Positions 64 to 17,696 of a stretch of 46,278 nt of DNA are shown one piece after another. The DNA is from Chloroflexota bacterium. GTDB lineage: Bacteria; Chloroflexota; Anaerolineae; B4-G1. Made by a program: the position numbers and the translations under genes. The stretch covers positions 1-46,278 of the forward strand of contig JAAEPW010000431.1 of the NCBI GenBank assembly GCA_024232355.1, in the 5' to 3' direction. The notes under the pieces were generated by a model. That model was not told where the DNA came from. It did not search any database and saw only the letters and a program-made list of their open reading frames with translations. Positions within the stretch are counted from its first letter, which is position 1; the number at the start of each line of letters is the position of its first letter.

Positions 64-2025
64 CTACCGCATCATCAGTGGTAAATAGACGGTGCGTCCA
101 TTGAGTATGGCGATGACCTCGCGTGTCCACGTGTTACCCAGGCCATCGTCCACCATCACGGTGTTGACGACCACCGTAGGCTCAATGATCCCCACATTCT
201 CAACGGCGCTGTACGTGATGTTCACGGGTTCTCCAGCCTCAACGGCCCCCGCCCAGGTGATTGTCCCGTCCGACTCGCCATAGCTGCCGGACGATGCCCA
301 TAAATCTCCCTGGTAGGTCACCTCGGCGGGCAAGGTGCTGGTGATTTGAACGGAGGGCAAGGTCGGGCCGGAATTCTCCAATTGGATGGTATAGGCCAGC
401 GTGGTTAGGGCCAACGTGCCGGTGCCGGACGTCGTGGAACGAACGCTCGCCCGCGAGTTAAGCGTCCCCTGCAAAATTGATCCTGTGCGCTGATAGTTTC
501 CGCGCCCCGTCCCCCACAATATGCGTGCGTTTTCCGTGCCGGGTAGGTCATAGGCCACGAACCCAGAGTGGGCCGTGTTGAGCACGATTTCCTGGTCCGC
601 ATCGGCGTCAATGTTCGCCAGGGTGGGAGCGGCCAGCGCGCCGTTCCAGTCGCCGTTGAGGGCCGGGGGCAGGTCGATCTCGTGCAGCACGTTGCCCTGG
701 TGGTCCAAGACGTGCAGCTTGCCGGTTTGGTTTGAGTCGTTTTTGGGCCACGAGCCAAAGATAACCTCGGCGTCGCCATTATTGTCCAGATCAGCCACGA
801 CTGGTTCCGAGGCAAAGCGGTAATCAAGCCCGCCTGGGTAAACGGAATAGGGCCAGTTGTGATGCTCGGTCTTGTCCAGCCAAAAGGCGTGCACGCGGCC
901 ATCGTAGGAGGCGTAGAGGATCTCTTTTTCGCCATCCCCGTCCAGGTCGGCCAGGACCGGGTTGGGCTGCGCGCTCTGGATCACGCGCCAGTCTTCGCTC
1001 AACGGTGCGCCGGTGTCCACGGGCAGCGTTTGCCAGTCATAGCCGCCTGCCTGAAAGCGGCTGCGGTCGGCATTAAAGATATAGACGCCGTTGTACTTGC
1101 CCGGCGGGTGGCCCACGTCGCAGTCGTAGACGTTGCCAGTGACGATCACTTCTGTCGCGCCATCGCCATCGACGTCGGCAATGGCAGCCGGACCATGGGC
1201 AAAGTTGGTGCGATAGCTCTCTGCGCGGACGCCATTGCACTGCCCCCAGCCGCGCAATTCGGTCTCCAGGCTTTCCCATACGCCGACCTTGCCCCAGTCC
1301 TTGTTGCCGTACATCGAATGGGCCGGAATTTGATCGCCATCCGGCTCGTAGGCGCAAATATAGTGCATATCCGAGGGCACAATGATCTCTCCCACGCCAT
1401 CGCCGTCCACATCACCGATGGCGGCGTTGTCGTTAAAGACCCCGTAGGCATAGCCAGAGTCGTCGTTCAACTGGGGCCAACCCGCGCGCAGCGTGCCGGT
1501 GTGTTCATAAACCCAAGTGTTGACCTTGCTGCCGACTGCGCCAGTGACGATGATCTCCATCGTGCCATCGTCGTCCAGGTCATAGACCGAAAGACCGCGC
1601 AGTTCGTTGCTGATGGGCCGCTGTGACCAGACAGCCTCGCCCGCGTGGTCAAACACGTACAAATAGCCGCCAAGTTGCGCGATGACGACCTCCAGGTCGC
1701 CGTTATCGTCAATGTCGGCGACGACGGTACCGGGCCATATCCGGTCGCCAGGCGTGTTCACGGACCACTGGGTGCTGCCATCCTCGCCATTGAGGGCAAA
1801 GAGTGTGTACGCCCCGGCGATGACCTCCATTGAGCCGTCGCCGTCCAGGTCGGCCACGGCGGGCGACGAGTACCAGCCGGTCTCGCACCAGTGGGTACAG
1901 CCCCCATGCTGCCACTTGAGCGTCGGTGCCTGGATCGTTTGCACGAGAGGAGCAGCCAACGAGCCGTCGCCGATCAGTCCGACGAGGAGCAAAAGTACAG
2001 CAATAGACAACCAAGTGTGCTTCAT
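64..2025 (-). CDS. Secreted FG-GAP/VCBS-repeat protein with LPL C-terminal tail
   Basis: This is a 653-residue secreted protein of unknown ligand. A signal peptide covers residues 1-25 (KHTW then a Leu/Val-rich stretch ending SLA-AP). About eight FG-GAP/VCBS blades follow, each with a calcium-type loop such as ADLDGDGSMEV, ADIDDNGDLEV, YDLDDDGTMEI or ADVDGDGATEV, together enough for an integrin-alpha-like beta-propeller (about residues 55-515). A DUF11/Ig-like domain (about 535-640) leads into the last residues RTVYLPLMMR. The start ATG overlaps the stop of the upstream gene as ATGA and has an AAAGGAG site 8 bases before it, so translational coupling is likely. It is the last gene of the secreted polysaccharide cluster. 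The propeller may bind carbohydrate or protein; no catalytic motif is visible, and substrate recognition or adhesion is inference. Confidence 0.85.
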   Translation of the reverse strand: MKHTWLSIAVLLLLVGLIGDGSLAAPLVQTIQAPTLKWQHGGCTHWCETGWYSSPAVADLDGDGSMEVIAGAYTLFALNGEDGSTQWSVNTPGDRIWPGTVVADIDDNGDLEVVIAQLGGYLYVFDHAGEAVWSQRPISNELRGLSVYDLDDDGTMEIIVTGAVGSKVNTWVYEHTGTLRAGWPQLNDDSGYAYGVFNDNAAIGDVDGDGVGEIIVPSDMHYICAYEPDGDQIPAHSMYGNKDWGKVGVWESLETELRGWGQCNGVRAESYRTNFAHGPAAIADVDGDGATEVIVTGNVYDCDVGHPPGKYNGVYIFNADRSRFQAGGYDWQTLPVDTGAPLSEDWRVIQSAQPNPVLADLDGDGEKEILYASYDGRVHAFWLDKTEHHNWPYSVYPGGLDYRFASEPVVADLDNNGDAEVIFGSWPKNDSNQTGKLHVLDHQGNVLHEIDLPPALNGDWNGALAAPTLANIDADADQEIVLNTAHSGFVAYDLPGTENARILWGTGRGNYQRTGSILQGTLNSRASVRSTTSGTGTLALTTLAYTIQLENSGPTLPSVQITSTLPAEVTYQGDLWASSGSYGESDGTITWAGAVEAGEPVNITYSAVENVGIIEPTVVVNTVMVDDGLGNTWTREVIAILNGRTVYLPLMMR

Positions 2026-4622
2026 AGCGAGTTCTCCTTTAGTATCAGGGGTAGGTAAACCTCGTGTGGGTTGACAATAATCGTGGCCGAGCGGACGATA
2101 GGCTCGTAACCCGGCATAGCAATGGTGACCGTGTTGATGATGGCCTGCGATGGAGTGAGTGTGGCAGTCCCAGAGACGACGTAGGGCACAGTGACAGCAT
2201 AGGTGATGGTGATGGTTGGGACAGGGGTCAGGACGCCTGTCCAGGTCAACGTGGGAGCAAGGGCATCGTCCCAGGTGCCGGATGAGGCGTGCAACGTGCC
2301 GGAAACGTAATCGAGACCGGATGGTACGACGTCGGTCAGGGCAACGGTATGCGTTATCGGGCCACTGAGATTATGCACCGTTATGGTATAAGTGACGAGG
2401 TCTCCCGCAGTGGGACCCGGCGCAGAGGCTGTCTTGGTCGATGGGCTGAGATCGGGCACCGCCTCGCCGTCATAGATCAATATCTGGGATGTATACGGCT
2501 GCAACGATATGCTGCCGACCCGCCTGTTCTGGTCCAGGTCCAGGTACTGGGCGGTGCCGAGATCGATCTCTTGGACCCGCGCCGTGTCGTTATAAAAGAT
2601 GTGTGAGAGCGGAGCTTCGCCAGTGCCCAGCGTAAACCAGGATTCCTTCGAATTGCCATCTTTGCCGCTGTAGCCCTGCCACGAGGCAAGCGAGTGATCT
2701 CCAACAGCCCGGATGTGATCTGCCTCGTAGGGGCTGAAAAAATAGTTGCGGTCAGAGGTCCCCAGGACACTCGAATCCTGCATCGATAGGGTCCAACTTT
2801 CCCCGTTGAGGTTGTAGAGCACGTTGTCGGTATGGGCCGAGACGTAGGTTGGCGAACCGGTCAGCCATACCTGGCCCGACCAATTCGCGGTTCTGCTGTT
2901 GTTGTACATTGTGTTGTCGGTGATGGTGCCCGTCGAATCTTGATACAGAATTCCGTGTACGGTCGAGCTGATGACGGTGTTCCCGGTCAGGGTCACGTCC
3001 CTGGAATAATGATCGATGTAGAAACCGAAACCGAACAGGGACTTGTATGTGTTGTGACAGCCGTCGGTGTTCCCAAGCGTGTCGATGATCATGTTCTCGT
3101 TGAACACGAGATCGTGAGCCGCTGTCTGCGACAAATTGTCTCTGCCAAAAGTGCGCACGCCGCCGCAGTCCCCCTTGGTGTAGCAAACTTGCTGGATGAC
3201 GTTGTGTTCAAAGGTGTTAGCGTATCCAAACACATCAACGCCGTTGTAGGCGATGCGCTCCAACCGGTTGCCCATCACGGTGTTGTTGTTGCCACTGTCG
3301 TCAGCCTCGTCAATCTTGATTCGGATGCCGTCGCCATCCTCGGTGCATTGGCCGCCGCCGTCGTCAAAGTCGCATCCCAACCCCGCTGCGCCCAGGTTCT
3401 CGATCACACCCACATCGTGGATGACGTTGTCGCTGATGGTCGAGTCCCGGCTGTACAAGTTGATGCCCATACGGTTGGCTGTGTCGATGGTGTTTCCATC
3501 GACCGTCATATTGTAGCCGCCGCGCCATCCATCCGCCCGACCATCCTCCGCGCCCCACACCCACGACATCAAGTTGATGCCCATACCGTCCACGTCCGAG
3601 ATGGTGTTGTTTTGCAGTGTGATGTGGTGGTTTTCGTAATGGGCGTGATTGGTCGGCGTGGCGATGCCGTGGCGGAACCAGCGCCGGACGTCGAGGTTCT
3701 CAACGACGACGTAAGCGATGCCCGGCTCGTTCAAGTCCTCTCCCAACGTGATGCCGCCCCACGACCGGTCGTCGTCCTGGAGCACGACGGAGCCTTCGAC
3801 TTTGCCGTCGGACGGTGCGCCGCCGGTGGTGTACAGGTAGACCTGGTCGGTCGCGGCGTCGTAATACCATTCTCCTTCCCGGTCGAGGGTGCTCAGATGC
3901 CGGTTGAGAAAGTAACCCCATCCTGTGCATCCGCCCCAGCAGTCGGGGTACGCGCCCAGGGTCAAGGTCTGCGCTGAGTCGCCGGTCACCTCGCGGTTGA
4001 GGATGTACCAGCGCATTCCCTTGATGTGTGCCGCCGCCCCGGTCCAGTCGCCGCTCGGAAGCTCGTTATCGGTGATCTGGCTGCTGGAATGGGCGTCGAT
4101 GGTCGAGTAGCCGGCGTCGCCCGTGTCGAGGTTGGGCCAGCGTCCCAGCATCAGCCGCTCGTCGTTGCGGAAAAGTTGATTGACACCGTACCCAAACTTG
4201 CCCGCGTTTTGCCCAGCGCCGAGAGGCGCGACGTAGATGTTGGCGCTGTGGCTGGTCCACCCTGATACTGGCTGCGCGCCGGAAAGGATCGGCTGGTCTG
4301 CGCAATCCGCCGGGTAAGAGCCAAAGGTGATCGGGTTGCCCGCCGTGCCGGATTGGGTGATGGTCAGCATCTCTGCCCGCCACGTGTCTCCACATTTGAA
4401 CAGCATGCTGTCCCCAGGTTGCAAATCGAGGCTGTTGACCTTGGCAATCGTCTCGAAAGGCGCTCCCTCCGAAAATCCATCGTTGTCATCGCCCCCGCCG
4501 CTGCTGGAGACATAGTAGGTGGTTCCGGCTTGTAGATAACGGCTCGCACCAACGGGGGCAACGAGGTTCGCGACGAGTAGAAATCCCAATAACGGTATGT
4601 AAAGCTGTTTTAATCTGTTCAA
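2022..4622 (-). CDS. Secreted right-handed parallel beta-helix protein with DUF11 and LPL tail
   Basis: This is an 866-residue secreted protein. I choose a TTG start at 4622 because AAGGAG lies 8 bases upstream and a signal peptide (NRLKQLYIPLLGFLLVANLVAP) follows directly. The GTG at 4649 would put the Shine-Dalgarno sequence inside the gene. The mature part opens with YYVSSSGGGDDNDG, the usual N-terminal strand of pectin-lyase-fold proteins. It continues as parallel beta-helix coils rich in 'xIxxNTIxxxxxxGI' turns (about residues 30-620). A DUF11 domain (about 720-850) ends in NPHEVYLPLILKENSL. The fold is typical of polysaccharide lyases and glycoside hydrolases, but I cannot assign a CAZy family. 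The four extra residues after the tail also encode the ribosome site of the next gene. It lies 28 bp downstream of the pectate-lyase-like gene. Confidence 0.83.
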   Translation of the reverse strand: MNRLKQLYIPLLGFLLVANLVAPVGASRYLQAGTTYYVSSSGGGDDNDGFSEGAPFETIAKVNSLDLQPGDSMLFKCGDTWRAEMLTITQSGTAGNPITFGSYPADCADQPILSGAQPVSGWTSHSANIYVAPLGAGQNAGKFGYGVNQLFRNDERLMLGRWPNLDTGDAGYSTIDAHSSSQITDNELPSGDWTGAAAHIKGMRWYILNREVTGDSAQTLTLGAYPDCWGGCTGWGYFLNRHLSTLDREGEWYYDAATDQVYLYTTGGAPSDGKVEGSVVLQDDDRSWGGITLGEDLNEPGIAYVVVENLDVRRWFRHGIATPTNHAHYENHHITLQNNTISDVDGMGINLMSWVWGAEDGRADGWRGGYNMTVDGNTIDTANRMGINLYSRDSTISDNVIHDVGVIENLGAAGLGCDFDDGGGQCTEDGDGIRIKIDEADDSGNNNTVMGNRLERIAYNGVDVFGYANTFEHNVIQQVCYTKGDCGGVRTFGRDNLSQTAAHDLVFNENMIIDTLGNTDGCHNTYKSLFGFGFYIDHYSRDVTLTGNTVISSTVHGILYQDSTGTITDNTMYNNSRTANWSGQVWLTGSPTYVSAHTDNVLYNLNGESWTLSMQDSSVLGTSDRNYFFSPYEADHIRAVGDHSLASWQGYSGKDGNSKESWFTLGTGEAPLSHIFYNDTARVQEIDLGTAQYLDLDQNRRVGSISLQPYTSQILIYDGEAVPDLSPSTKTASAPGPTAGDLVTYTITVHNLSGPITHTVALTDVVPSGLDYVSGTLHASSGTWDDALAPTLTWTGVLTPVPTITITYAVTVPYVVSGTATLTPSQAIINTVTIAMPGYEPIVRSATIIVNPHEVYLPLILKENSL

Positions 4623-4650
4623 GTTTTTATCTCCTTCCAACGCTGTCACG

Positions 4651-7311
4651 CTACGGTCCCGCCTGCCCCGAGTCCGGATCGACTATCAACGAGGATACGT
4701 CCACCGCCTCAAAGTCCGAGCCGTGCACCTGGCGCAGCTCGCGCAACACGTCGTTGTCCCAGTTTTCGTCAGGCACGCCCGAGATGTACCAACTGCTGCC
4801 GTTGTCGGCCAGGATGATGCCATAGGTCTTGAAGGCTTGCAGGATAACCTGCACCTCGGGCGAAAAGCCCGAAATATCAAAATTGGCCCTGAGACGGAAG
4901 CGTTGTCCCAGCGGTGGGTATTGCGATCCGGTCAGGCTGGACGCATAGTGCCGGGCGGGCCAGACGTAGTCACGGCGGGTCTGCGGCGCGGTGAAGCGGA
5001 TGGCGTGCCGGATCTCACCTGCGGCGACCTCGTCGTAGCGCACCAGTCCCGGCAGGATAGGCAGTCCGGCGGCGTCGGCCGAGGTCCAACCGTCCGGGCG
5101 CAGGGCGTTGGAACCCAGATCAAAGATCGCGCCGGACCCCGCGTACCAGCCGTCATTCTCCAAGTGCGCCGCGTAGAGTTCATATAGCACACAGTTGTCC
5201 CGGTCCACGATCAGGATGTGGCGGTCGCCGTCGCCGTCCGGATCGCCCTCGATGGGCGGGTTCGGGGGGATGGGATATGGACCGTCGTCGCTTTCGTCGT
5301 CGTAAGTGAAATTGACGCTTAGCCCGGCCTGCGTACTGGGCACGTCCACGTAAGGGATGCCGATGGGAAAGCCTCCCCAGGTGCCAGAACCAAAGTCGGC
5401 GTGCAAGTTGGTGTTGGCCCCGATGGTATTGACATAGGCCGTGGAATTCGGGTCCAACGGCAGCGTGTCGATGGGCGTATTCCAGATGTTGTCGGCGGGG
5501 AAGACGTCGCACCCGGCGATCTGTGGTGACTGTCTACCATCCCACCCACGCAGCACCAGTGGCAGGAGCACATAGAAATTCTCACCGGACCCGGTGCCAA
5601 AGTTCCAGATCGGCCCGATAGTCGTGCTGAGGCCATCGGTAGCGGTGATCTGCCAGTGATACGTCGTGCTGGTGATGAGCGCCGGTGTGTACAGGGTCTG
5701 TGTCACGGTGGCAATCACCGGCGGGCTGGCCGTCCCCCCTGTCGCCCCCAGGGCTATGGTGTAGGTCACGGGGTCACCATCCGGGTCGCCGCCCTGCCAG
5801 CTCAACGTCGTGTCGGCAGAGACGCCCACCGCGCCATCGGCCGGGCTGGGGTTGGCGGGGACGTTGGGGGCCGCGTTGCCCACGCCGGGGAGCAGCGCGT
5901 CTGCCAGGCCGTTGATGTATTCCTCAATGGCCGTGTACCCGGAGGGCATCACCGTACTGTGATCGTTGCCGTCCTGGGGACTGAGGCCGTGGGCTGTCTC
6001 CCAGGTGTCGGCCATACCGTCGCCGTCGTCGTCCGTTGGCGGCGTGCCGGGGGTCAGGCCTTGTAGCCAATCGCCGGGCCGGTGGTTTCCCCACGAGCCG
6101 GTGCGGTTGCGCGTCTCGGTGACGGCCTGCGTGTTGACAATGTCTCGAGGCCGGGCCCCGGCATAATCCAGGACATCGGTGTAGGCTTGCTGGGAATTCG
6201 CGGTCGTGACAGGCTCATAGTCAGAATAGGCTGTGAAATCAAACTCGCCCACCTGGTTAAAGTAGGAACTGTCCAGGCAGCCCGAGTCGTAAAAGGTATA
6301 AGCCGATACAAACCCGGACGAGTCGAAGGGATTATCGACCTGACCACTGAACGTCCCGGGATCATCGATCCAGTTATCAGAGAGCCAATAACGGGCATCC
6401 ACTGTGCTGCAATTTTCGGGGTCGAACCAAAAGGGCACCAAGGTGGTGCTGGGACCATCCCGATAATAGTTGCCCACGATGTTAAAGTCGCCGTCTGCCG
6501 GGTTGTGATGCACAAAGCCTTCACGGCCATTGTAAACCACGTTGTTACGCACCTCCGCCGGTCCCTCGGCCAGGGCCGGGGTGCGGGCTCTGGCGTGGGC
6601 AAACAGATTGTGGTGCAGAGAGATGCGACCACCGCCAGGGCCGTTGATCATTCCATAATTGTGGCTATCGCCGTCCGGATGCCCGCCGCCATAAACCGGA
6701 AAGGTGATGGCCGACCACTGGATGGTAATATCGGTCGCGCCGCCCCACAGATCGATGTTTTCGTCAATGCCGTGCGAGATATCGACGTGGTCCAGGATGA
6801 TCAGATTGTTACACGAGAACTGCACGGCGTCGTGCTGAGCGGGGGACCAATCGTCGTCGGGTGGGCGGACGCGGATGTGGCGGATGATGATGTTGCCCCA
6901 GGTGGTGCAGTAATCGGTGTATAGGTGTCCGTTGATGGTGATACCCGCCCCGGGCGCGGTCTGCCCGGCGATAGTCACGTCGCCGTGGGGAATGCGTACG
7001 TCGCCTACGATCACACCCGACACTGTAAACACAATGATGCGCGAGCCGGACTGGTCCAAGGCCCATTGCAGGCTGCCTTCTCCAGAAGCCGCCAGTGTGG
7101 TCACCTTGAGCACCGATCCACCCCGCCCTCCGGTGGCCGCAGCGCCAAAGCCCTGTGCCCCCGGAAAGGCCGGCAACGGAGGTGGAGCGCTGGCGTCGTC
7201 GGGAAGCGCCGTTGGCTCGACAGCTTTGCCGTTTGGCTGAGCCATCACCAGGCAAGCCAAAATGAGGGTCAATGTAAGGGGTATCCTTCCAACCAAAACT
7301 CGTCTAACCAT
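4651..7311 (-). CDS. Pectate-lyase-like (PL1-type) secreted protein fused to a second C-terminal domain
   Basis: The protein has 886 residues from ATG 7311, which is preceded by AAGGAGCTCAAA; the longer frame to 7392 lacks a site. A signal peptide (VRRVLVGRIPLTLTLILACL) is followed by FPGAQGFGAAATGGRGG, the hallmark opening of PL1-like pectate lyases. The beta-helix covers about residues 49-403 with IIVFTVSGVI, VTIAGQTAPG, IIIRHIRVRP, and DHVDISHGIDENID where catalytic-face residues usually lie. Next come a calcium-type DDDGDGMADTWE segment (about 426-437) and an FN3-like domain (about 480-573). The tail motif VLLPLVLRGW (580-589) is internal here. It is followed by about 290 residues starting CDVFPADNIWNTPID, which I recognise only as a conserved uncharacterised domain found in other secreted proteins. 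Eliminative cleavage of pectate-like glycan is likely but unproven. Confidence 0.85.
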   Translation of the reverse strand: MVRRVLVGRIPLTLTLILACLVMAQPNGKAVEPTALPDDASAPPPLPAFPGAQGFGAAATGGRGGSVLKVTTLAASGEGSLQWALDQSGSRIIVFTVSGVIVGDVRIPHGDVTIAGQTAPGAGITINGHLYTDYCTTWGNIIIRHIRVRPPDDDWSPAQHDAVQFSCNNLIILDHVDISHGIDENIDLWGGATDITIQWSAITFPVYGGGHPDGDSHNYGMINGPGGGRISLHHNLFAHARARTPALAEGPAEVRNNVVYNGREGFVHHNPADGDFNIVGNYYRDGPSTTLVPFWFDPENCSTVDARYWLSDNWIDDPGTFSGQVDNPFDSSGFVSAYTFYDSGCLDSSYFNQVGEFDFTAYSDYEPVTTANSQQAYTDVLDYAGARPRDIVNTQAVTETRNRTGSWGNHRPGDWLQGLTPGTPPTDDDGDGMADTWETAHGLSPQDGNDHSTVMPSGYTAIEEYINGLADALLPGVGNAAPNVPANPSPADGAVGVSADTTLSWQGGDPDGDPVTYTIALGATGGTASPPVIATVTQTLYTPALITSTTYHWQITATDGLSTTIGPIWNFGTGSGENFYVLLPLVLRGWDGRQSPQIAGCDVFPADNIWNTPIDTLPLDPNSTAYVNTIGANTNLHADFGSGTWGGFPIGIPYVDVPSTQAGLSVNFTYDDESDDGPYPIPPNPPIEGDPDGDGDRHILIVDRDNCVLYELYAAHLENDGWYAGSGAIFDLGSNALRPDGWTSADAAGLPILPGLVRYDEVAAGEIRHAIRFTAPQTRRDYVWPARHYASSLTGSQYPPLGQRFRLRANFDISGFSPEVQVILQAFKTYGIILADNGSSWYISGVPDENWDNDVLRELRQVHGSDFEAVDVSSLIVDPDSGQAGP

Positions 7312-7402
7312 TTTGAGCTCCTTGTATATACTATTGGGAGACATTGCCCCCTGACACAGTAAAGCTGCTTCACACTTTGAAAAGATCGCCAAGATTCATT
7401 CA

Positions 7403-8596
7403 CTATCTATCTTGCAACAGACAATGCCGACATTGATCCTCTGTACTGGGAACTACCTCGCCGTCAGGGGTAAAGGTTACGCAGATGATATCCTCATACT
7501 TGGCGGCAAACATCTCATCTTTGGGACACCATACCACATTCCAGAAAAAACCGGGGAAAAGTAGTCGAGGTTCATAATCTACACCCAGGCGGTATAAACC
7601 TTGATCAATCTCTGGAGACCCAAAAAGCCCTCCATTTATGCACAGCACAATAGTCTTGGTGTCTGGGTCAAGTGCTGCACCATCAAAGGGATCACTATAG
7701 AGTTGTCGTGTATTTCCTGTTTCAACATTTATTTCATGTAACCTTTGTGAGGATCTTTCGAAAACCCATGTTTCGGCAACAAATGTGTTGACAGAGGTCC
7801 AACCCAAGATGTTCTCTTGGTAGGGAGAGCCCGAGTACAGCTTGTGAGCTTGATTTTCCGTTACTGATACTGTCCATACCGCCTCATCGACTATATCTGT
7901 GTAAAAGGAATCATACGGATAGTTAGCAATTTCTCCATATACAATCCACTTGTTGTCAGGCGACCAACTCATCAAAATAGTCAAATGGTGCCCATCGGCA
8001 AGGCACTGGATGCTGTCTTGTTCCAGATCGTACACGCACACATCAGTGCTTTGTGCATCAAGAGCACTGACAAATGCCAGGTAGCGTCCATTGGGAGACC
8101 ACTTGAGTATTTTGGGATCTGTTACGAGACGATGAACTGTTGATGGGTACCATGCTGTGCCATCTTGTTCAAGTGCATTTCTGATTTTTTCACTCAAGAG
8201 TGGGATGCTACGCACCACGTTCGAGTTCTCAAGATCAAAGATTTCGAGTTGATAGTTATATTTACTTTCCGTGAGCATTACTACTGCTTTATACAGCCCC
8301 GTCGGAGACACACGTGTATGTTTTACTATTTGTGGCGCGGCAGTCACAGTGGGTCTCGGTGTGGGAGTAGGAATGGTCAGTGAAGGCAGTGGAGTAGATG
8401 GGAGGGAAGATGGTGGCATAGTCTCCGTCGCGGAGGTCAAAGTCGGTGGGGCAAAGGCGGGAGTTGCGGTGCTATCTTTTCCGCCCCGAGTAACCGGCAA
8501 GGTTTCACTCTGCTCGCAAGCTGAGAGCAGAAAACACACTGCCATAATGCCCCAAACGATATACCGACTATGATAAAGGTGTGATTTAGTGAACAT
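7403..8596 (-). CDS. Lipoprotein with TolB/WD40-like propeller
   Basis: This is a 397-residue protein from the second ATG of an ATGATG pair (8596; the first is at 8599). The pair is preceded by GGTGGAGA. The longer frame to 8677 would overlap the upstream GH44 gene. The N-terminus is a lipoprotein signal: hydrophobic WGIMAVCFLLSAC with Cys27 as the lipidation site, then a Ser/Thr/Pro-rich linker (about 28-85). The rest has repeated segments of TolB/WD40-like type, for example LKWSPNGRYLAFVSAL, MSWSPDNKWIVYGEI and VVWCPKDEMFAAKYED, about one per 45 residues. It sits inside the polysaccharide cluster, 35 bp after GH44 and 91 bp before the pectate-lyase gene. Its codon use looks more AT-rich than its neighbours, which suggests later insertion. 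Unlike its neighbours it has no LPL tail, consistent with a lipid anchor instead. Function unknown; a surface binding role is inference. Confidence 0.75.
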   Translation of the reverse strand: MFTKSHLYHSRYIVWGIMAVCFLLSACEQSETLPVTRGGKDSTATPAFAPPTLTSATETMPPSSLPSTPLPSLTIPTPTPRPTVTAAPQIVKHTRVSPTGLYKAVVMLTESKYNYQLEIFDLENSNVVRSIPLLSEKIRNALEQDGTAWYPSTVHRLVTDPKILKWSPNGRYLAFVSALDAQSTDVCVYDLEQDSIQCLADGHHLTILMSWSPDNKWIVYGEIANYPYDSFYTDIVDEAVWTVSVTENQAHKLYSGSPYQENILGWTSVNTFVAETWVFERSSQRLHEINVETGNTRQLYSDPFDGAALDPDTKTIVLCINGGLFGSPEIDQGLYRLGVDYEPRLLFPGFFWNVVWCPKDEMFAAKYEDIICVTFTPDGEVVPSTEDQCRHCLLQDR

Positions 8597-8631
8597 CATT
8601 CTCCACCGCCAGTTGTCTGTCCAGAGTCTTT

Positions 8632-11187
8632 TTAGCGCATCACCATTGGCAGATAAACCTTGTGCGGGTTGACCCAAATTGCAGCCGTTCGAATAACAGG
8701 ATCATAGCCAGGCACAGCGATGGTGGCCGTGTTGGTGATGATCTGCGGCAGAGCAAGCGTGGCCGTGCCAGAGATGATGTGGGGCACGGTGACGGCGTAG
8801 GTGATGGTGACGGCTGGGGTGGGTGTCAACACGCCTGACCAATGGAGAGTGGGGGCATCGGCTTCGTTGACTGTCCCAGACGTGGCGGCCAGGGTGCCAG
8901 GGGTGTAGGATAGCCCCGCTGGAACGGTGTCCGTAAATAGAACGGTGGTGGTCAATGGGCCGGTGCTGTTGCGGATGACGACGGTGTAGGTCACTTGTTC
9001 GCCATAGTTGGTGACTGGAGAGGAGACGGCTTTGTAGGAGGGGGTGAGGTCGGGTTGACTTGAGGCCTGGGACGGCACCACGAATAGCGTGATCGAGTTG
9101 GCCGGATAAGTGGTGGTGAACTCGCCGGTGGACACCGGTTGGTCCGCTTCTTGAACAATGGCGGATAGGTTGGCAGGGCTGTATCGGAACACCTGGGCGG
9201 TCGGGGCGAACGCAAAGTTTGCCAGCGAGAGGGTGCTGGTGAGCGACTCTCCAGTTTTGTTGATAGCGATCAGTGTCAGGGCCGCGTCACTGTCGCGCTG
9301 GGCGGCGTAAATCGCGAGTTGTTCCTGATCGGTGCTGGAGGCTTGAATGCTGGTCTCGCCAAAGGTGCTGCCCAGGCCGTCATAGTTCAGGTACAAACGA
9401 AAGGCGTAGGCGGCGGGTTCGTCGGTGTCGGGTGGCCCCCACAGCGTCGCCAGATCAAGCCCCTCGCGGCCAAAGATACCGAGCACGTCTGCCTGAGCCA
9501 GTGCACCATTGATGTGATCGAGCGCGCCCCAATTATACTCGGTGATTGCCGTTTTGGTGCCGGGATAGTTGTCGGCGATCCACTGCTTCATGCGCGGGAT
9601 AAATTGTATCGGGTCATTGGTAGTATCCGAAATCCAACTCTCGTCCTGGTAGGTGGGGTCCCATAGCGAGCGGGTCGAGCGTAAGCGCAACGCCTGGGCC
9701 TGGGCGTTTCCGGCGGACGAAAGCGCTACACCGTTTGCTTGTGGATAATAGTGCAAATCCAAATAGTCGAGGATGCGCACGCCGTTGGCTTGCTCGTAGG
9801 CGGCCATTTGCTGGAGGTACCAGGGCGTAAAGTCCATATTGCCGTGGCTTGCACGGTCGGGACCGGGGCTACATCCATCGGCAGCAGAGTATAAATAGGC
9901 ACACCAACCCCATACCACCGGCCCGAGTGTCTGGGCCGTGGGATCGGTGGCTTTGACCACCGCGCCATAATCGTAGGTGCGGTCGCGCATCTCGTCGTAA
10001 TCGGCAGGCTCGGGGTGTACGTCGCGGTGGGTGCTGTTCCACAGCATGGGCTCGTTGTCCAAGTTGTAGAACATTACACCGCCTTCGGCTGCCGTGCCGT
10101 ACTCGTCGGTCAAGTGGTTGATCCACGAGGTGACAAAGGTGGTGGTGATAGGAATGCTGGTGTCGGATGGATCGTTGCCCGTGATCTCTACGCCGCCCTG
10201 TTCGCCGCTTCCGCAGTCGGTATCCCACGGATCAACATTGTCCTGCGTGCCGTACACGCTCACCTTGAACCCACAATCGTACGGGTGGCTCTCCAGGCGG
10301 CGCTTGGGGGTCCAGCCGATGAGCGGCATGGTCAATATGGACTCGGTTCCGGTGCGTAGATTCTGTTCAACTATGGCATCAATCCTTCCGGGAGTGTCAG
10401 GAACATTCTCGAAATACCAGTCTAGGCCGGTGTTGTGCACGTCGATCTGCCAGTTGTAGCGCGTGGTCGAGTTGCCCCCCCAGCGGCGCACGGGCAGGCC
10501 GAGTTCGTCAGCCAGGTCCTCGCCCGTAAAATTCATCCCATAGATGTACGGGCTGATAGAGTGGCGGGCGGCGGCGACGTCCACGCTCAGGGCTGGGCCG
10601 GCGGAGGGAGTAGGTAGAGGAGAGCCCGTGTTCACAAAAGTTACGTCGTCCAGGTAAAAGGTGGGCTGGGCATCGTTGACGTTGCTTTGCCAGATGAGGT
10701 CTGAAACGGCGGTTGGGCTGCCTAACTCGGAAAGGGGAATTTCTACCTCTTGCCAAGTCCCCACCGTGGCAATGACTTGGTACGAACTACCGTTTTGGTT
10801 AATGCTGACGGAAATATCTTGGCCGCCAGCGCTGCCTCCGTGCAGCCAAAAGCGCAGCGTGTCGTAGGTGCTGAGACTGAGCGCGTTGGCGTGCAGGTAC
10901 AGCCCGCCCCAGGCTGCCGTGTGCGTGACACTGATAGAGTTTGTGCCGCTGTACACGGGGCTGCTGTTTGCGAAATCGATTGTAGTATCCCACGACCAGC
11001 TTTCCCAACCGGAGGCTAGGGCATCATCATACACAATCAGGTCAGAGGGAGCTTGGCTTTGGGCTGACCCCACAGTGACCAGTGCGGCGACCACCAAGGC
11101 CAGCAGAACGAACGAGGTGATCCATAAGGCTTTTCTGATTGTGGTTGGATGACCAAGTTTTTGGTTAGGGCTTGTAAGTGATTTCAT
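8632..11187 (-). CDS. GH44 family endo-glucanase/xyloglucanase, secreted, with DUF11 and LPL tail
   Basis: This is an 851-residue secreted glycoside hydrolase. The order is a signal segment (about 19-43), a carbohydrate-binding-like beta-sandwich (about 49-186: IVYDDALASGWESWSW up to FYLDDVTFV), a Ser/Pro linker, a GH44 catalytic region (about 200-695), a DUF11 domain (about 713-838) and the tail NPHKVYLPMVMR. GH44 hallmarks are ISPYIYGMNF, LPVRRWGGNSTTRYNWQ and NTGLDWYFENVP. The acid/base Glu is expected in FYNLDNEPMLW (Glu379) and the nucleophile in KTAITEYNWG (Glu550); both are present. Known GH44 enzymes cleave beta-1,4-glucan backbones of cellulose derivatives and xyloglucan with retention. 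The start has AAAGGAG 7 bases upstream and lies 17 bp after the DUF4091 gene. Family assignment is firm; the exact substrate is inferred. Confidence 0.92.
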   Translation of the reverse strand: MKSLTSPNQKLGHPTTIRKALWITSFVLLALVVAALVTVGSAQSQAPSDLIVYDDALASGWESWSWDTTIDFANSSPVYSGTNSISVTHTAAWGGLYLHANALSLSTYDTLRFWLHGGSAGGQDISVSINQNGSSYQVIATVGTWQEVEIPLSELGSPTAVSDLIWQSNVNDAQPTFYLDDVTFVNTGSPLPTPSAGPALSVDVAAARHSISPYIYGMNFTGEDLADELGLPVRRWGGNSTTRYNWQIDVHNTGLDWYFENVPDTPGRIDAIVEQNLRTGTESILTMPLIGWTPKRRLESHPYDCGFKVSVYGTQDNVDPWDTDCGSGEQGGVEITGNDPSDTSIPITTTFVTSWINHLTDEYGTAAEGGVMFYNLDNEPMLWNSTHRDVHPEPADYDEMRDRTYDYGAVVKATDPTAQTLGPVVWGWCAYLYSAADGCSPGPDRASHGNMDFTPWYLQQMAAYEQANGVRILDYLDLHYYPQANGVALSSAGNAQAQALRLRSTRSLWDPTYQDESWISDTTNDPIQFIPRMKQWIADNYPGTKTAITEYNWGALDHINGALAQADVLGIFGREGLDLATLWGPPDTDEPAAYAFRLYLNYDGLGSTFGETSIQASSTDQEQLAIYAAQRDSDAALTLIAINKTGESLTSTLSLANFAFAPTAQVFRYSPANLSAIVQEADQPVSTGEFTTTYPANSITLFVVPSQASSQPDLTPSYKAVSSPVTNYGEQVTYTVVIRNSTGPLTTTVLFTDTVPAGLSYTPGTLAATSGTVNEADAPTLHWSGVLTPTPAVTITYAVTVPHIISGTATLALPQIITNTATIAVPGYDPVIRTAAIWVNPHKVYLPMVMR

Positions 11188-11204
11188 TGTTGTACTCCTT
11201 TGTT

Positions 11205-13502
11205 TTATTGTTTGAGAACTAGTGGCAAGTATAAAAAGATATTCGTAGGCATCACCCGCACCGTGTCGGACATGACCGATGTGGTGTCCACCATCGCGTT
11301 AAGGGTGACGGTGTACCAGACATAGTTGGTCAGGTCCGTGAGCGTGTGGCTGCGGACGGTGCTGGTGGGGATGGTAATGGGTGGGAGGAGAACCGTGCCG
11401 GTCTCGCTGCTATAGTCGATCTGCCAGGTGCTGGTCGAGGATAGGGTGTTGGTGATTTCCCAGGTCAGGCGGATGGCCTGATCTTGCGGCGTGCCGTGCA
11501 GCACCAGGTTTCCTCTCTCAATGATGTCGGCTAGCTCGGCCCGTGCTGCCTCCCACACGTCGGGATTGGTGGACCAACTGATGTCGGAATATACATAGGT
11601 TGGATCATCCTCGGTCTCTACGCCGACCTCCCACAGCACTTGGGGGATCATCTCTTTGACGATCTCGGCGGTGCGCTGCGGGTCGATGGCTGCCGCCAGG
11701 GTGAGGTAATCCACGTCCTGGATGCCGCGCCGCCACAGCTTGAGCCGCAACGAGGCAAGCGGCCCCATCAGGTCATAGCTATCCTCCGGGTAGCGGGTGT
11801 CGGTGCCGGGGTAGAACAACACGCCGTCGCCGTTGCTATAGTTCCACCCAGTCTCGCCCTCTACGTCGTCGTCGCGGCTGTAACGGCCAAAGGTCTGCGC
11901 TTGTCGGAAGACGTTGGTCTGGGCCAGAGGGTCGTTGTAGCCATAGGCTTGAAAGTTGACGTAGTACGTGGATTCCCAGTAGAACCAGCGATCAAATTGC
12001 TTTTTGTATTGGGTCCACGCCAGCGCGCGCAGGGCCACGCCGTCATCCTCGGTGAGAAAAGTGCCGGTGGCCGGACGGCTGCCATTGTATATGTACGTCC
12101 ACTTGTCTGGATCTGCCAGGTATTGGTCGGCGGCGGCTTGCCACACATCGGTGATGCCAAACCCTGCGTACGTCGTGGGTACGTCGAGGGAAGGCGTTTC
12201 GGCTGCTGCTGCGGGCAACCCAATTGTCGCCATAGACTTGAGGCGCTGGCCGGGGCCGGGGTTGTTATCCATCCACTGGGCCCACTGCTCGGTTTGAGGA
12301 TAGTCGTGCGATTCGTCGATGAGATAGAGGAAATACTCGGTGGGCGTGCTAAAGGCTTGAGCATCGAACCAGTTCACCCAAGCGTCGGTGTTGTCCCACA
12401 TCTCTTGCTCACTGTCCTCATCCCACATCCAGCGCCAGCTCCCATAGGTGCCGACAGAGTAGACGTTGTTGCCTACGCCCACGCCGACGCCGTCGTATTC
12501 TTGAGCCGAGGTAAAGAGTTCGCCGGTCAGGCGAGCTGTCCAGGCCTCGTCCATCCGATTCAGGGTGCCGCCGCCGATGAGGGATATCTTGTGCCGGTGG
12601 GCGAGTTGAAAGTGGCGGTCGGCCAATGCGAGGGATTGAGTGTAGACGGATGTGCCGGGATTGGGCCACGGCTCGTCGAGGTAAACGGCATTGATGTCCT
12701 CCCCAACCACCAGCATCGTCCGGGCGTTGGGAAGGTCGGGGAGTTCAAAGTTGCGCACTCGCAGGTGGATGGGAACCTGTCGCGCGGGCGCACCATCCTC
12801 GGTGATCTCGATAGTGCCCTCGTAGATTCCGGGGGGCGTTGTCTTGGGGACATAGATATCGCTCCATATGGATTGGTTGGTGCCAGCGGCGATGGTAAAG
12901 GGCGTGTGGAGTTCGAGAGGGACGGCGATGTCGGGGGAAAGTTGGTTGTGACAGGGCCGATCTTCCCAATCTGTGCCAGGCAGAGCATAACGGCCGTCGT
13001 GGGGACGGCGGCAGCGTTCGGGGACGTGCCGCTCGTCGTAATAATTTTCGTACCCCAGGTGGCTGAGCCCGCGGATTTCCAGGTAGCGCACGAAATAAAG
13101 CTCAATGTTGCGCCCGATATAGTTGAACAGGTCATCGTCGGTGCTGGTAGATCGGGTGGTGATGCTGGCACCGCCGGGACCGGTCAAGGAGGTCAAGCTC
13201 ACCTCGACGTTGGCGGCGTCGGAGGAGGGCGCTTCGAGCACCAAGTTGAAGCCCACCACCTCGTTGCGCGCGCCGAATAGCGAGATGGTCGTGCCATCCC
13301 AGACCGAGTTGTACACCGCGCTGGGGTCGCTGGTGGCGCGCAGTTCGCTTTGCCAGACCTTGTCCTGCCCATTGTTGGCCCAGACTTGGGTGATGTCGTT
13401 GGGGGTAAGAGGGGCGGCTATGGCGTCTTGTTGCTTGACCGGTGACTGGCAGATTGATAATGTGATCAAGGTCAAGAATACCCAAAGCTTTTGTGTTTTC
13501 AT
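11205..13502 (-). CDS. Secreted DUF4091 (glycoside-hydrolase-like) protein with FN3 module and LPL tail
   Basis: This is a 765-residue secreted protein. ATG 13502 is preceded by AAAGGAGAAAAA, and a signal peptide ([17 protein letters not shown]) follows; the longer frame to 13550 runs back into the upstream gene. An N-terminal beta-sandwich (about 30-250: [33 protein letters not shown]) precedes an (alpha/beta)8-like region (about 260-660). That region ends in [12 protein letters not shown], the characteristic C-terminal signature of DUF4091 proteins. An FN3-like module (about 665-750) ends [18 protein letters not shown]4091 proteins are usually treated as putative glycoside hydrolases, and acidic residues such as [13 protein letters not shown] fall at an expected active-site strand, but no activity is established for this one. 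It sits 17 bp after the large beta-helix gene and 17 bp before GH44, so one transcript is likely. Confidence 0.85.
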
Positions 13503-13519
13503 TTTTTCTCCTTTAAGAA

Positions 13520-16500
13520 TCAATGATACCGCAAAACAAGGGGCAGGCAAACAAAGATATTCGTTGGCATCACTGTCACCGTGTTGGTCATCAAAGGGGT
13601 GCTATCGAGCATGGCGTTGAGGGTGACGGTGTACCAGACGAAATTGGTCAGACCGGTGATGGTGTGACTGTGCGCCGTGCCGGTCAGGCTGATGGGCGGG
13701 ACGAGGACTGTGCCGGTCTCGCTGGCATAGTCGATCTGCCAAGTGCTGGTCAGCGGCGGCGTGATGTTGACCGTCCAGTTCAGATGAATGGCCTGATCGT
13801 CCGGTATGCCCAACAGATCTACCTCTGGCACAGCCTCGTGTGCACCAATGTCCCACGCCCAGCCCTGGGGCCGGCTGACGACGTTCATATCATAACTGAA
13901 TTCGTGCAGCGTGATGCCTGCATCAATGGCGGGCGAGTTCACGCGCAGGTAGAAATCACCCGCTGCCGGACCGACGAACCGGGGATCGACGCCGAACGTG
14001 CTGTGTTGGTCATATTCGGGCTGTTTGGGCGGCCAGTCAAAGTCGGGGTAGTGGATGTTGTAATCCCACACCGTGCCAACCTTGGTGTCTTGATCCCCGA
14101 TCTGGGAACCACCACCGTTATTGTAAAAGATATTGTTCAGCACCGTCAGATAGGGGCTGCGGCCCAAACCGATAGCGCCATAGTGGCTTTCGGCCACTAC
14201 GTTGTTGACGAACGTAAAGTGATCCACAGATCCGTTGAACGCGATCGCCCGAGCGCCTCGCAAGATGTTGTTGCGAAAGGTGATGTGATGCACCGCGTTG
14301 CCCGTTCCGCTTGACTCACTCTGATCCTCGACCATGAACATTTGGCCAAAGTTGTCACAGATGTTGCCCTCAACCAGGATGTGGTGGGCGAACTGGCTAT
14401 CTGGCCAGACCGAAAAGGTCTGGAAACAGTCGATGTGGGGATCGCCATACTGTTCCTCGTCCAAATAGTCGTGCATATAGTTGTTCCGAATGACGTGCCC
14501 GCTGCCAAAAAAGCGCATCGCGTCGGAATCGCCTCCGACCTCCGCGCCGGTGTCGGTGTTGACGTCCAGCCCGTGGGAAAGCTCGTTCCCTTCCACGACC
14601 CAGTTTCGCCCGACGATGCTGATCCCCGTGCCCTGCACCCGGTAGAGGGTATTCCCTTTGATCACGGTGTTTGCGTTGTCGTGGCTGCTGGCCCGGACTC
14701 CCACGTAACCATAGCTGGAAGGATCAGGGTTGAGTTCGTGGACAAAGTTTCGCACAATCTCGACACGTTCGGTATTGCCCAAGAAAATGCCCCCTTGCCC
14801 GGAATCTCCCCCGCCGTGAATATCGGTGATCTCGAAATTCTCGATTCTCACATACACTATCGGCACGGTACTGGGATAGGCCGGCTGGAGCACAAATCCT
14901 CTGGTGACGGCGTTGACCGTCGGATTGCTCGGCACTTGTGTCGGGTTATCGGGATCGAAAATCGCGTTCGGGTCGACCAGGCTCTGGTCAGGCACGTTCA
15001 GCCCTTTGTAGGTGATATAGTTGCCCGGCGAGCCTCCTTCGCGGATCGCCACGCGGTCATAGCTCCCCGGATAGACGATGATGGTGTCGCCCGACTGGGC
15101 CACATCCGCCGCGTGTTGGATTGTCAGCCACGGTTCGGATTCGGTGCCGGGGTTCTCGTCGCTGGCCTGGGGGTGGTTTTGATCAACGTAGAAAAAGCTA
15201 TCCAGGACGGTGGTCGTAGAGGTGTAATGGCCCGACGCCGTCTCGTTGTACGCCACGTCCTGAGACCGCACCCGAAAGTGATATGTTGTTTCAGGGTACA
15301 GCCCCGCCAGCGTGACCGAGTGCGAGGTCACCCGCGTACTCGTGATGGGAGTGATGGTGTCATAAGCGCCCGTCTCTCCGTATTCCACCTGCGATGTGCA
15401 GTCCTCGTCCGTCTCCCACGAGATCTCGGCTGAATAAGGGGATACGTTGATCGCTTGAACGTTGGATATGACAGGCGGCACAGTGTCAGAGGAAAAAATA
15501 TAGAAACTAATCTTGTAATCGTCGTCGTTCGCGCTTCCGGCTGTGTCCTGGCACCGGACGTAGTAGGTATAGGTCTGCTCGTCCACCAAGCCTGCGACCG
15601 GGTGCGTGTGTGTGATGGAGCCGGTCACGGCAAAGGTGTTGGGCATCGCGGCAAAAGAGACGCCGGGTGATGTTGCGTAGCGGCATGTCGCCGACTCGTT
15701 CGTCGCCAGGTAGAGGGTGACCTGGGTGGTGTCTGAGGGGAGAATGCCGCTGGGCGCGCCGTCGGATCGCAGGGGTGGTACGGTGTCAGTGCCGGTACTT
15801 GCTTCGTCGGCCCCAATGTCCCAACCGCCGGTGCGGGCATCGCCGTCGACGTCGTCTGCGAAAGCGATCTGGGCGTCGGTCGAAAGGTCGGTGCCATAGT
15901 TGCGCGCGCCGGTATCGGTGGCGGCGAGGTGGAAATTGTCGTTCCCACTGTCCACAAAGGCAAAGGTCTGATCTATGCGCGAGTTGAATCCCGGCGCGCT
16001 ACCGTCGGAGGATGCGTTGAAATCGGAACCGGGATAAAAGATGCCGTAAAAGTCGTCGTTGGGTGCCTCGGTCAAATTGTTCTTGGCGACGACCATACCG
16101 CCGGACCGGATGGCAAAGCCTTCGATAACGTCTATGATCGTATTGTTATAGATGTAGGACGCGCCCGCCGAGGTCTGGATGCTGCCCAGGTAACCGATAG
16201 CGCCCACGTCATAGATGATATTGTTCCACGCCTTGAGCACTCCGGTGTAATCATAGATATAGATGCCGCTGCCCGTGTCCACGCCGTTCCCGTGGATCAG
16301 GTTGTGGCTGAGGTGGATATCGCCCACGCCCTCACCAGCATAGGGGCGGACGTAGACCAGGCTGCCATCGTACAGGCCGTGTATCTCTAGCCCCTCGACC
16401 CGGAAATAGGCCACGCCGCCATAGATGGGGCGGTCGCCCGTCGTCACCAGCCGGTAGCCGCTTCCGACTGTGCCGTCGTGCTGGGCCTCGACTGTCGTAT

Positions 16501-16831
16501 ATATCCTGATGTAATGATCGGCATCCGTCGTCCAACCGCTGAGATTGAGCGGCTGGGTGTCTGCTAGAGTCCACGTGCCCTCGATCCGGGCCACGGCGAT
16601 TTTGTCCGCCGCAACCAGGTCTCCCGGCTGGTTGCCCGCAAAGTCGATGCCGCCATAATCCGCCTCCCAGGCCGAAAGGGATGTGTAGCAATCGCTGTAA
16701 CCGCCGCAATCCTGCCGAATGATGCTGATTATTTCCTCAGTCACGGTTTGATTTTGGGCGCGTCCCACACCGCCCGATGCCGTCAGCAATACGAGTGTGA
16801 GTATCAATGTGAGTAGTTTTTGTGATTTCAT
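13520..16831 (-). CDS. Large secreted double beta-helix / FN3 protein with LPL tail
   Basis: The protein has 1103 residues from ATG 16831, which is preceded by AAAGGACACAA; the longer frame to 16960 overlaps the upstream gene. A signal peptide ([20 protein letters not shown]) is followed by a first right-handed beta-helix (about 35-340: [35 protein letters not shown]). Two beta-sandwich modules follow: a Cys-containing one (about 345-450) and an FN3 domain (about 453-540: [18 protein letters not shown]). A second beta-helix starts [18 protein letters not shown] (about 547-1000) with many 'NNxF/IxxN' turns. A terminal FN3-like module ends [16 protein letters not shown]. Both helices resemble polysaccharide lyase or carbohydrate-epimerase folds; I cannot name a family. 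The C-terminal module closely resembles that of the next gene (DUF4091), suggesting module duplication within the cluster. Confidence 0.85.
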
Positions 16832-16850
16832 TTTGTGTCCTTTTTGCTTT

Positions 16851-17696
16851 CTAGCGTTTCGCCCCGCAACACTTTTTGTACTTGACCCCGCTTCCGCATG
16901 GGCAAGGTTCGTTGCGTCCCACCTTTCTCTTGATCTGGAGCCTTTCTCGTGGCTCGTCAAAGCAAGCCCACCACTCCATCTCTTTGATGGTATCGTCTAT
17001 ATAACTGTATCTGCTTTCCCCTCTCAAATCTGTTAGCATTCGATCCTTGCCTTGTTCAATTTGCCCTTGCACCCATTCCAAGTTAGTGTAGTTTTCATCC
17101 ACCAGACCTTCCGCAAAGGCTTGGCTGATTTCTTCTAACAACTCTTTGGGGTGCAATTCACAACAGCAGTCAACCAGGCTTCCCCAGACAAGGGAGGGTT
17201 TTCTTTCAAGCTTTTCTCGGAACAGTGCTCGGTAATAGCTCATTATCTCTTCGCGGCTCTGGTCTCCACGAGCCACCAACACCAGCAATCCTTGCAAGGC
17301 CGCGCTGCGTACGTATTCGTTGACATTCTCATTTTCTATCAGCGATTCCATCAGACTCGTATCATTTCCGCACACAGAGGCCAGGATACGATTGAGGTCC
17401 TCGGTAACGAGTTCCCCCGTAACATCCAGCGTGACCTCACCCGGAATGGAGAAAAACTCGACGATCAAGGGATATGCGCGTCTCTCTCGAAACTGGGCGA
17501 GCAGGTACATCGCATACATGTGCGCCATATAGTTCTTTTCATATGCCAACTCGTCTATGTTTTCTGCTGCATCCTGGACGATTGCCAAGAGTTCGGGTGT
17601 GATCGACTCTTTTCTGGTCATCGCGTCTCGCAAAGCTCGACGTGGAAACCTTTTGTTATAGAATTCAATTTTGTCTAGGATTTCTTCGATTTTCAT
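16851..17696 (-). CDS. DUF1186 protein with C-terminal SEC-C zinc motif
   Basis: This is a 281-residue predicted cytoplasmic protein. The body is mostly helical HEAT-like DUF1186 sequence ([55 protein letters not shown]). The last 20 or so residues are a SEC-C motif, [17 protein letters not shown], with Cys-x-Cys and Cys-Cys zinc ligands as in the SecA tail. The start has ATAGGAGAGAAA just upstream. The family has no established function that I know; the SEC-C motif suggests a ribosome or protein-targeting contact, which is inference. It precedes the secreted-enzyme genes with a 19 bp gap, so it may be the first gene of that transcript or merely adjacent. Its base composition is more AT-rich than the enzyme genes. 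Confidence 0.85.

Follow-up and report, generated by a model that had tools for sequence, protein, structure and literature searches.

Type IX secretion is a system of the Bacteroidota, and PorU, its C-terminal sortase, is a C25 peptidase. The signal of that system has been described as a beta-sandwich domain (PMC4804311), and the PEP-CTERM, GlyGly-CTERM and MYXO-CTERM tags are set out in another source as a motif joined to a membrane helix and a basic cluster (PMC11980579). Here we consider a C-terminal element of about seven residues, the YLP box, which occurs on six proteins encoded in one gene run of a Chloroflexota bacterium (contig JAAEPW010000431.1 of assembly GCA_024232355.1, positions 1 to 46,278; this whole stretch of 46,278 nucleotides is called the window below). 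Its consensus, as read from the sequences, is [YF]-L-P-hydrophobic-hydrophobic-hydrophobic-[RK], placed a few residues from the C-terminus. The motif is already catalogued in NCBIfam, in the entries NF050076 (sort_motif_YLP) and NF053834 (ultrashort_CTERM), as the "YLP-box putative sorting motif", a name that a preliminary description of this DNA, aware of similar tails but of no established function, did not mention. The catalogued motif and the tails of the window are the same and stand in the same position, but the entries name a putative motif without a mechanism. What is new here is the evidence for independence from the preceding domain together with a candidate reader that can be tested.

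The box shares with the LPXTG signals of sortases a Leu-Pro core, a C-terminal position and exported carrier proteins, but it has neither the Thr-Gly nor the membrane segment, there are no residues for a helix after the Leu-Pro, and sortase is not associated with it. Like the tags of the PEP-CTERM/exosortase, GlyGly-CTERM/rhombosortase and MYXO-CTERM/myxosortase pairs, each of which is read by one enzyme, it is a short C-terminal tag found on many exported proteins; unlike them it has no helix. The translations thus bear out the earlier remark that the tail lacks a PEP-CTERM or LPXTG layout. Lacking a membrane segment, such a sorting tag does not follow the usual tripartite plan, and its reader must therefore work by another route. 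With type IX secretion the box has in common the C-terminal position of the signal and a candidate reader that is a PorU-related C25 peptidase, but the box lies outside the fold and is not a beta-sandwich domain, and the C25 proteins fall below the cut-off for PorU.

We read the tail as a dedicated ultrashort C-terminal sorting tag that would serve surface retention of Sec-type exported proteins in part of the Chloroflexota, and we give this reading a probability of roughly 0.6. Comparison of sequences and structure models shows a tail under constraint at the peptide level, C-terminal, outside the fold and not tied to the domain before it, and at the level of gene content the box co-occurs with C25 peptidases. 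The suggestion that the tail is a dedicated C-terminal signal therefore gains support, while the choice among anchoring, secretion and processing is one that we infer.

The run comprises seven minus-strand genes (64-16960), each of which overlaps its neighbour or lies at most 17 bases from it. A six-frame scan of the whole window for [YFVCL][LFM]P[LIVMF][LIVM][LIVM][KR] gave exactly six matches, all of them in six genes of this run, in agreement with the six secreted proteins with a common tail that had been reported, and none elsewhere. In 20,000 shuffles of the last 20 residues of the seven run proteins, there was no box in 19,911, one box in 89 and never more than one. A heuristic found a signal-peptide-like N-terminus in all six box proteins and in the boxless lipoprotein between them. 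Five of the six boxes lie within 4 residues of the C-terminus, and one is internal. The statement that five proteins finish in the box is correct as to the presence of the box, but only two end exactly there, and the other three continue past it with ENSL, Q and YH (4, 1 and 2 residues); the internal box noted in the pectate-lyase-like protein was found as described, with 298 residues C-terminal of it. The genes and boxes are as follows.

64..2025, minus strand: exported FG-GAP and DUF11 protein, 653 amino acids, tail ..TVYLPLMMR
67..87, minus strand: box YLPLMMR at the exact C-terminus; its 50-residue tail scores 15.4 bits with NF050076 (cut-off 15)
2022..4649, minus strand: exported beta-helix and DUF11 protein, 875 amino acids, tail ..VYLPLILKENSL
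2037..2057, minus strand: box YLPLILK, 4 residues from the end, past the last modelled strand (six-frame scan, model)
4651..7392, minus strand: exported pectate-lyase-like protein, 913 amino acids, with an internal box and then 298 residues resembling a separate domain
5548..5568, minus strand: internal box LLPLVLR (six-frame scan)
7403..8677, minus strand: lipoprotein-like protein with lipobox LSAC and beta-propeller repeats, without a box (translation, scan)
8632..11187, minus strand: exported GH44 and DUF11 protein, 851 amino acids, tail ..VYLPMVMR
8635..8655, minus strand: box YLPMVMR at the exact C-terminus (six-frame scan)
11205..13550, minus strand: exported GH123-like and fn3-like protein, 781 amino acids, tail ..YLPLVLKQ
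11211..11231, minus strand: box YLPLVLK, 1 residue from the end, past the last modelled fn3 strand (six-frame scan, model)
13520..16960, minus strand: exported beta-helix/fn3 protein with a choice-of-anchor Q match, 1146 amino acids, tail ..CLPLVLRYH
13529..13549, minus strand: box CLPLVLR, 2 residues from the end (six-frame scan)

The domain after the internal box (4651-5547, minus strand) recurs at another locus (L001, 3115-6357) as the end of a GH123 protein that has a dockerin-like domain, which indicates a C-terminal domain shuffled between proteins that in the window follows a box.

The window tails were tested against NCBIfam release 20.0 (cut-offs 15 bits for NF050076 and 10 bits for NF053834), both as 50-residue pieces and as whole proteins. 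As 50-residue tails, three of the six proteins reached the cut-off of at least one YLP-box model (64-2025, 2022-4649 and 8632-11187). The tail of 2022-4649 scored 12.8 bits with NF053834 and 14.2 with NF050076, and 8632-11187 scored 18.8 bits with NF050076 on its tail and 13.8 on the whole protein, with NF053834 above its cut-off in both. For the other three boxes, the internal one and two terminal tails, the 50-residue pieces gave no reported match to either model, and in the whole-protein scan 8632-11187 was the only one of the six box proteins to match a YLP-box model. NF050076 run against seven whole genomes gave zero matches at E 0.001, in our opinion because the model is so short. Searches of the literature for motif strings, YLP-box names and Chloroflexota sorting found no paper on the motif, most subscription journals being outside the full-text coverage, and no solved structure related to two of the 50-residue tails was found.

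Boxes were counted in 201 Chloroflexota genomes by a DNA pattern of seven codons and a stop-like codon, with the reversed pattern as control. The TRR end of the pattern admits TGG, and the raw counts therefore include non-stops, as do those of the reversed control; being an exact-end pattern, it also largely misses lineages with a few extra residues, such as that of the window. Thirteen genomes with at least 4 matches held 134 matches versus 15 for the control, the other 188 genomes held 62 versus 117, and 32 genomes reached via loci without a Chloroflexota label held 64 versus 67. As the excess is found in only a few genomes, the box appears limited to a subset of the Chloroflexota, as far as an exact-end pattern can see. 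Two of the thirteen, G016 and G061, were rejected as box-rich genomes, since none of their eight matches is a gene tail (four end in TGG and four close frames of 0-4 residues); one match in G018 likewise ends in TGG.

A gene sample was then drawn from 60 loci around pattern matches in six genomes (G170, G019, G065, G029, G074 and G172), with genes called by script. The core motif lay within the last 12 residues of 59 of the 572 genes, and the 247,121 residues contained 2 boxes located over 20 residues before the C-terminus, each with what by eye is a CARDB-like domain behind it; because the loci were picked by a terminal pattern, the 59 do not represent a rate and the contrast between terminal and internal boxes is partly due to selection. 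Eight further box-like tails fell outside the strict pattern, of which six stop at the basic residue and two have one more Pro. The 59 boxes represent 30 peptides encoded by 59 different 21-base DNA sequences, suggesting constraint at the level of the peptide. Leu-Pro is present in all 59, under a motif that itself demands both residues. Among box proteins with a complete start, a signal-peptide-like N-terminus was seen in 48 of 56, versus 138 of 464 other genes (p 4e-16), and several of the eight without one look like miscalled starts; the co-occurrence with signal peptides that had been suggested as a check is thus observed, and the box is not as frequent in proteins without a signal peptide as in those with one. 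A lipobox is rarer on box proteins (2/47, versus 17/87 other exported proteins, p 0.018), and a C-terminal membrane segment is not significantly rarer (1/47 versus 8/87, p 0.16).

Independence from the preceding domain had been proposed from the DUF11 and FN3-like contexts of the window. Three of these contexts, in 64-2025, 2022-4649 and 8632-11187, are related DUF11 domains (35-58% identity), and the fn3-like domains in front of the box in 11205-13550 and 13520-16960 share 66% identity, so that the window alone offers about three independent contexts and no proof. The proposal does hold in a wider sample, and it is this sample that carries the case. With the fn3-like tail domain of 11205-13550 as query, 77 proteins were recovered, and the partners of the fn3-box cassette in them include GH123, heparinase-like, beta-helix and PKD domains. 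The window's two entries and one protein without its C-terminus were left out, and 73 of the remaining 74 have a box with 0-6 residues after it (last 25 residues searched; trailing residues were counted from the last motif match, an earlier count having used the first). Named relatives of the cassette belong to the Chloroflexi, Anaerolineae and Thermoflexales, and those of the window's GH123 core are spread over many phyla.

The GH44 core of 8632-11187 as query had 7788 relatives; the listing covered the best 120, and 119 of them, all except the window's own, were examined. In 44 of the 119 the box directly follows the core, within 30 residues (37 with the full motif, 7 relaxed), and all 44 have the Leu-Pro, preceded by a variable linker. 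An automatic cut placed the box after an added domain or linker in 42 relatives (33 full, 9 relaxed), although by eye several of the nine have it directly after the core; 4 could not be cut, and 29 are without a box, including two with SLH domains (Pfam) and five that end at the core. With the last 18 residues searched, 89 of the 119 have a box with 0-5 residues after it. The relatives P0151, P0170, P0172, P0174, P0180, P0184 and P0210 have YLP, three hydrophobic or Thr residues and then E or A in place of K or R; this group may possibly be a lineage variant of the tag.

In the GH123 relatives (43 loci from named genomes), the box stands straight after the core at one locus (L011), one has a dockerin-like domain instead (L001, by eye) and several have neither. 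At L011 (11801-12028) the GH123 core carries a clear box, in a genome, G215, that has no excess of the pattern (1 versus 3 for the control); transfer or a binning error is possible. Pro/Thr-rich linkers precede the box in several proteins of G074. Of the DUF11 relatives without a box, four end in LPXTG or transmembrane-type tails and one in a tail like that of type IX secretion (by eye). At L145, L146 and L095 a DUF11 protein with an LPXTG-like tail adjoins a DUF11 protein with a box or box-like tail, giving two tags in one gene run. The giant DUF11 proteins of G074, G114, G038 and G047 have another tail and no box; at L136 (6551-17485), L142, L143 and L144, giant DUF11 proteins of about 3440-3640 residues (the L142 copy being cut by the end of the locus) end in a ..PERP.. 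tail.

Two segments were modelled with AlphaFold2: DUF11 from 13 sequences, with a mean predicted local distance difference test score of 86.6, and fn3 from 27 sequences, with a mean of 77.2 and a spread of 50 to 77 over its five models. The last strand of the DUF11 model (2022-4649) covers residues 121-130 and the box residues 135-141, leaving a gap of 4 residues; in the fn3 model (11205-13550) the last strand covers 81-90 and the box 98-104, a gap of 7. Both boxes are modelled without secondary structure, with a confidence in the last block of 57 for DUF11 and 44 for fn3.

A possible course of events is that the N-terminal signal peptide takes the protein out of the cell, that the flexible tail emerges last, and that a receptor or transpeptidase outside the cell would then bind the tail and hold the protein at the cell surface or at an outer protein layer. 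Since the tail cannot span a membrane, its reader could not wait for a membrane-stalled precursor and must bind the tail directly on the outside. One Chloroflexota species, Litorilinea aerophila (proteomics set PXD066799), is described as having a multilayered envelope and a DUF11 hook protein of 6596 residues, GhlA (WP_141610714.1), with peptides reaching residue 6566; the same source describes Chloroflexota surface layers as unusual and of unclear composition, and the phylum as being without the beta-barrel assembly machinery (BAM) complex and lipopolysaccharide (PMC13319060).

As a reader we tentatively put forward an extracellular C25 cysteine peptidase related to PorU, at odds well below even. 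The gene families that recur beside box genes were at first only general ones; a C25 peptidase was met beside box genes while the ends of giant DUF11 proteins were being read (Pfam C25, E 1e-83 and 2e-89 for two of them). Pfam C25 is found in 32 of the 201 genomes, 28 of them at E <1e-50, which we call strong. All 10 genomes with at least 5 pattern matches have a strong C25, versus 18 of 191 others (Fisher 6e-10), and so do 11 of the 13 with at least 4 matches versus 17 of 188; the two exceptions are G016 and G061, which have no real tails. The subtilisin-type family S8, taken as a control, shows no contrast (12 of the 13), and as it occurs in 169 of the 201 genomes it is a control of limited power. 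Among the matches listed in a literature search for C25 or PorU with Chloroflexi, no paper connected the two.

The C25 locus was read in 22 of the 28 strong-C25 genomes (left out were G038, G047, G068, G082, G106 and G148). In 11 of the 22 a gene with an LPXTG-like motif and a membrane tail lies directly beside C25, by script tag or by eye, and the encoded protein could be a scaffold or acceptor. The loci hold 27 C25 genes, including one fragment and one placed by coordinates only. In a tree of 25 C25 domains, read without inspection of branch support values, a clade of 11 all have a box-like tail 14-15 residues past the domain (three with Val for Leu before the Pro), and 10 of the 11 adjoin an LPXTG-like gene; none of the 25 aligned domains departs from the His and Cys of the catalytic type. 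In G122, G138 and G065 a DUF11 protein with a box or box-like tail, an LPXTG-like protein and C25 form one run, the DUF11 protein of G138 being split over two frames. It is conceivable, if improbable, that a PorU-like C25 transpeptidase recognises the free YLP box and joins exported proteins to the LPXTG-anchored scaffold encoded next to it, in cells without a classical outer membrane. If this were true, a Bacteroidota-style C-terminal sortase would have been shrunk to a seven-residue tag and chained to anchoring by a Gram-positive-style sortase.

C25 was also observed in a different setting. At L168 (G074, 213-9848) it is part of a cassette with PqqD-family, radical SAM and HprK-related proteins, beside a sortase gene; the cassette at L179 (G114, 6479-15989) is by eye arranged in the same way, a sortase match lying at the corresponding place, and those at L167 (G172) and L169 (G204) have a similar order by eye without a sortase. 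This cassette could be a peptide-modification system.

Several points weigh against a sorting tag with C25 as its reader. The C25 statistics treat genomes as independent and ignore phylogeny, and few families were compared, so another partner may fit better. G009 and G154 gave no C25 match although each encodes an exported box protein that was verified, and there is no C25 in the 46-kb window. Nor do the C25 genes form a single orthologous group: at the loci read, the 11-member clade is represented in no more than 6 of the 10 genomes that have at least 5 matches. The PorU model NF033707 was matched by all five C25 proteins scanned (E 1e-46 to 9e-69), with 159-232 bits versus a cut-off of 420, and of five LPXTG-like neighbours scanned with NCBIfam one (L146) was above cut-off, one scored 14.5 versus 15.9 and three had no match. 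Of the 27 C25 genes, 19 by eye have a box-like tail of their own, in some cases with V or A for the L before the Pro (7 do not, and one has masked letters at its tail), and C25 may therefore be just another cargo. Position 7 is E or A in 8 of the 89 boxes of GH44 relatives; together with the extra residues in three window proteins this suggests that neither the basic residue nor a free carboxylate is strictly required.

The box-like tails of C25 itself and the two box genomes without C25 would also suit an alternative that we hold to be unlikely, namely that the tail is a non-covalent docking peptide, which would add itself as a strand to a receptor or surface-layer protein without the help of a processing enzyme, C25 being co-travelling cargo. 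The box is a short, hydrophobic, strand-like peptide with a basic end that tolerates a few trailing residues, as such a peptide might be. However, an invariant Leu-Pro (59/59 under a motif demanding both, and 44/44 in the GH44 set with the box directly after the core) would be unusual for strand addition.

It is very improbable that the tail disguises a classical signal for sortase or exosortase. A Leu-Pro core followed by hydrophobic and basic residues does look like a shrunken tripartite signal, and sortase is present in 10 of the 13 genomes with at least 4 matches; but it is about equally common in the others (128 of 188, p 0.76; 138 of 201 above cut-off in all), and sortase was rejected as a general partner. 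Without G016 and G061 the tally is 9 of 11, G172 and G204 being without a sortase match, and G172 has none though it holds 31 pattern matches (8 for the control) and exported box proteins. Exosortase or archaeosortase was likewise rejected as a general partner, with a match above cut-off in only 1 of the 12 genomes tested (one of the 12, G016, having no real tails) and a second, weak match below it, and the tail has no membrane-spanning segment. At L174 (G018, 8654-13106) the genes after C25 end in a hydrophobic stretch and arginines and look tripartite, and G018 also has an exosortase. The Rhomboid family occurs in 13 of the 13 genomes with at least 4 matches and the CPBP family in 12 (the exception is G061, which has no real tails); both are widespread in control genomes as well and, being nearly everywhere, allow no judgement as partners; either may act as a general protease.

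The rival view offered in the preliminary description, that the DUF11 and fn3 domains simply end in the tail as their last beta-strand, is scarcely credible now. Most boxes in the window do follow such a domain, and in 72 of 74 fn3-family proteins the box lies 4 residues from the last strand motif. Both models, however, end the last strand ahead of the box, which leads us to reject this view for the two domains, and the box also occurs without either of them, after the GH44 core, the GH123 core of L011 and the Pro/Thr-rich linkers of G074. Equally hard to credit is a role that needs no partner, either as a weak anchor in lipid or as a cap protecting against carboxypeptidases: the tail is hydrophobic, C-terminal and on exported proteins, but when interfacial transfer energies (Wimley-White scale) are summed over each of the 59 boxes the mean is only -0.9 kcal/mol, probably too little for a large protein, and a greasy tail would not need a conserved Leu-Pro.

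Read as a sorting tag, the box would mark the likely surface enzymes of uncultured Chloroflexota, among them GH44, GH123 and pectate-lyase-like proteins. The co-occurrence of the box with a C25 locus offers a concrete gene in cultivable genera, and with it a motif that had been named and left unexplained becomes a system that can be tested.

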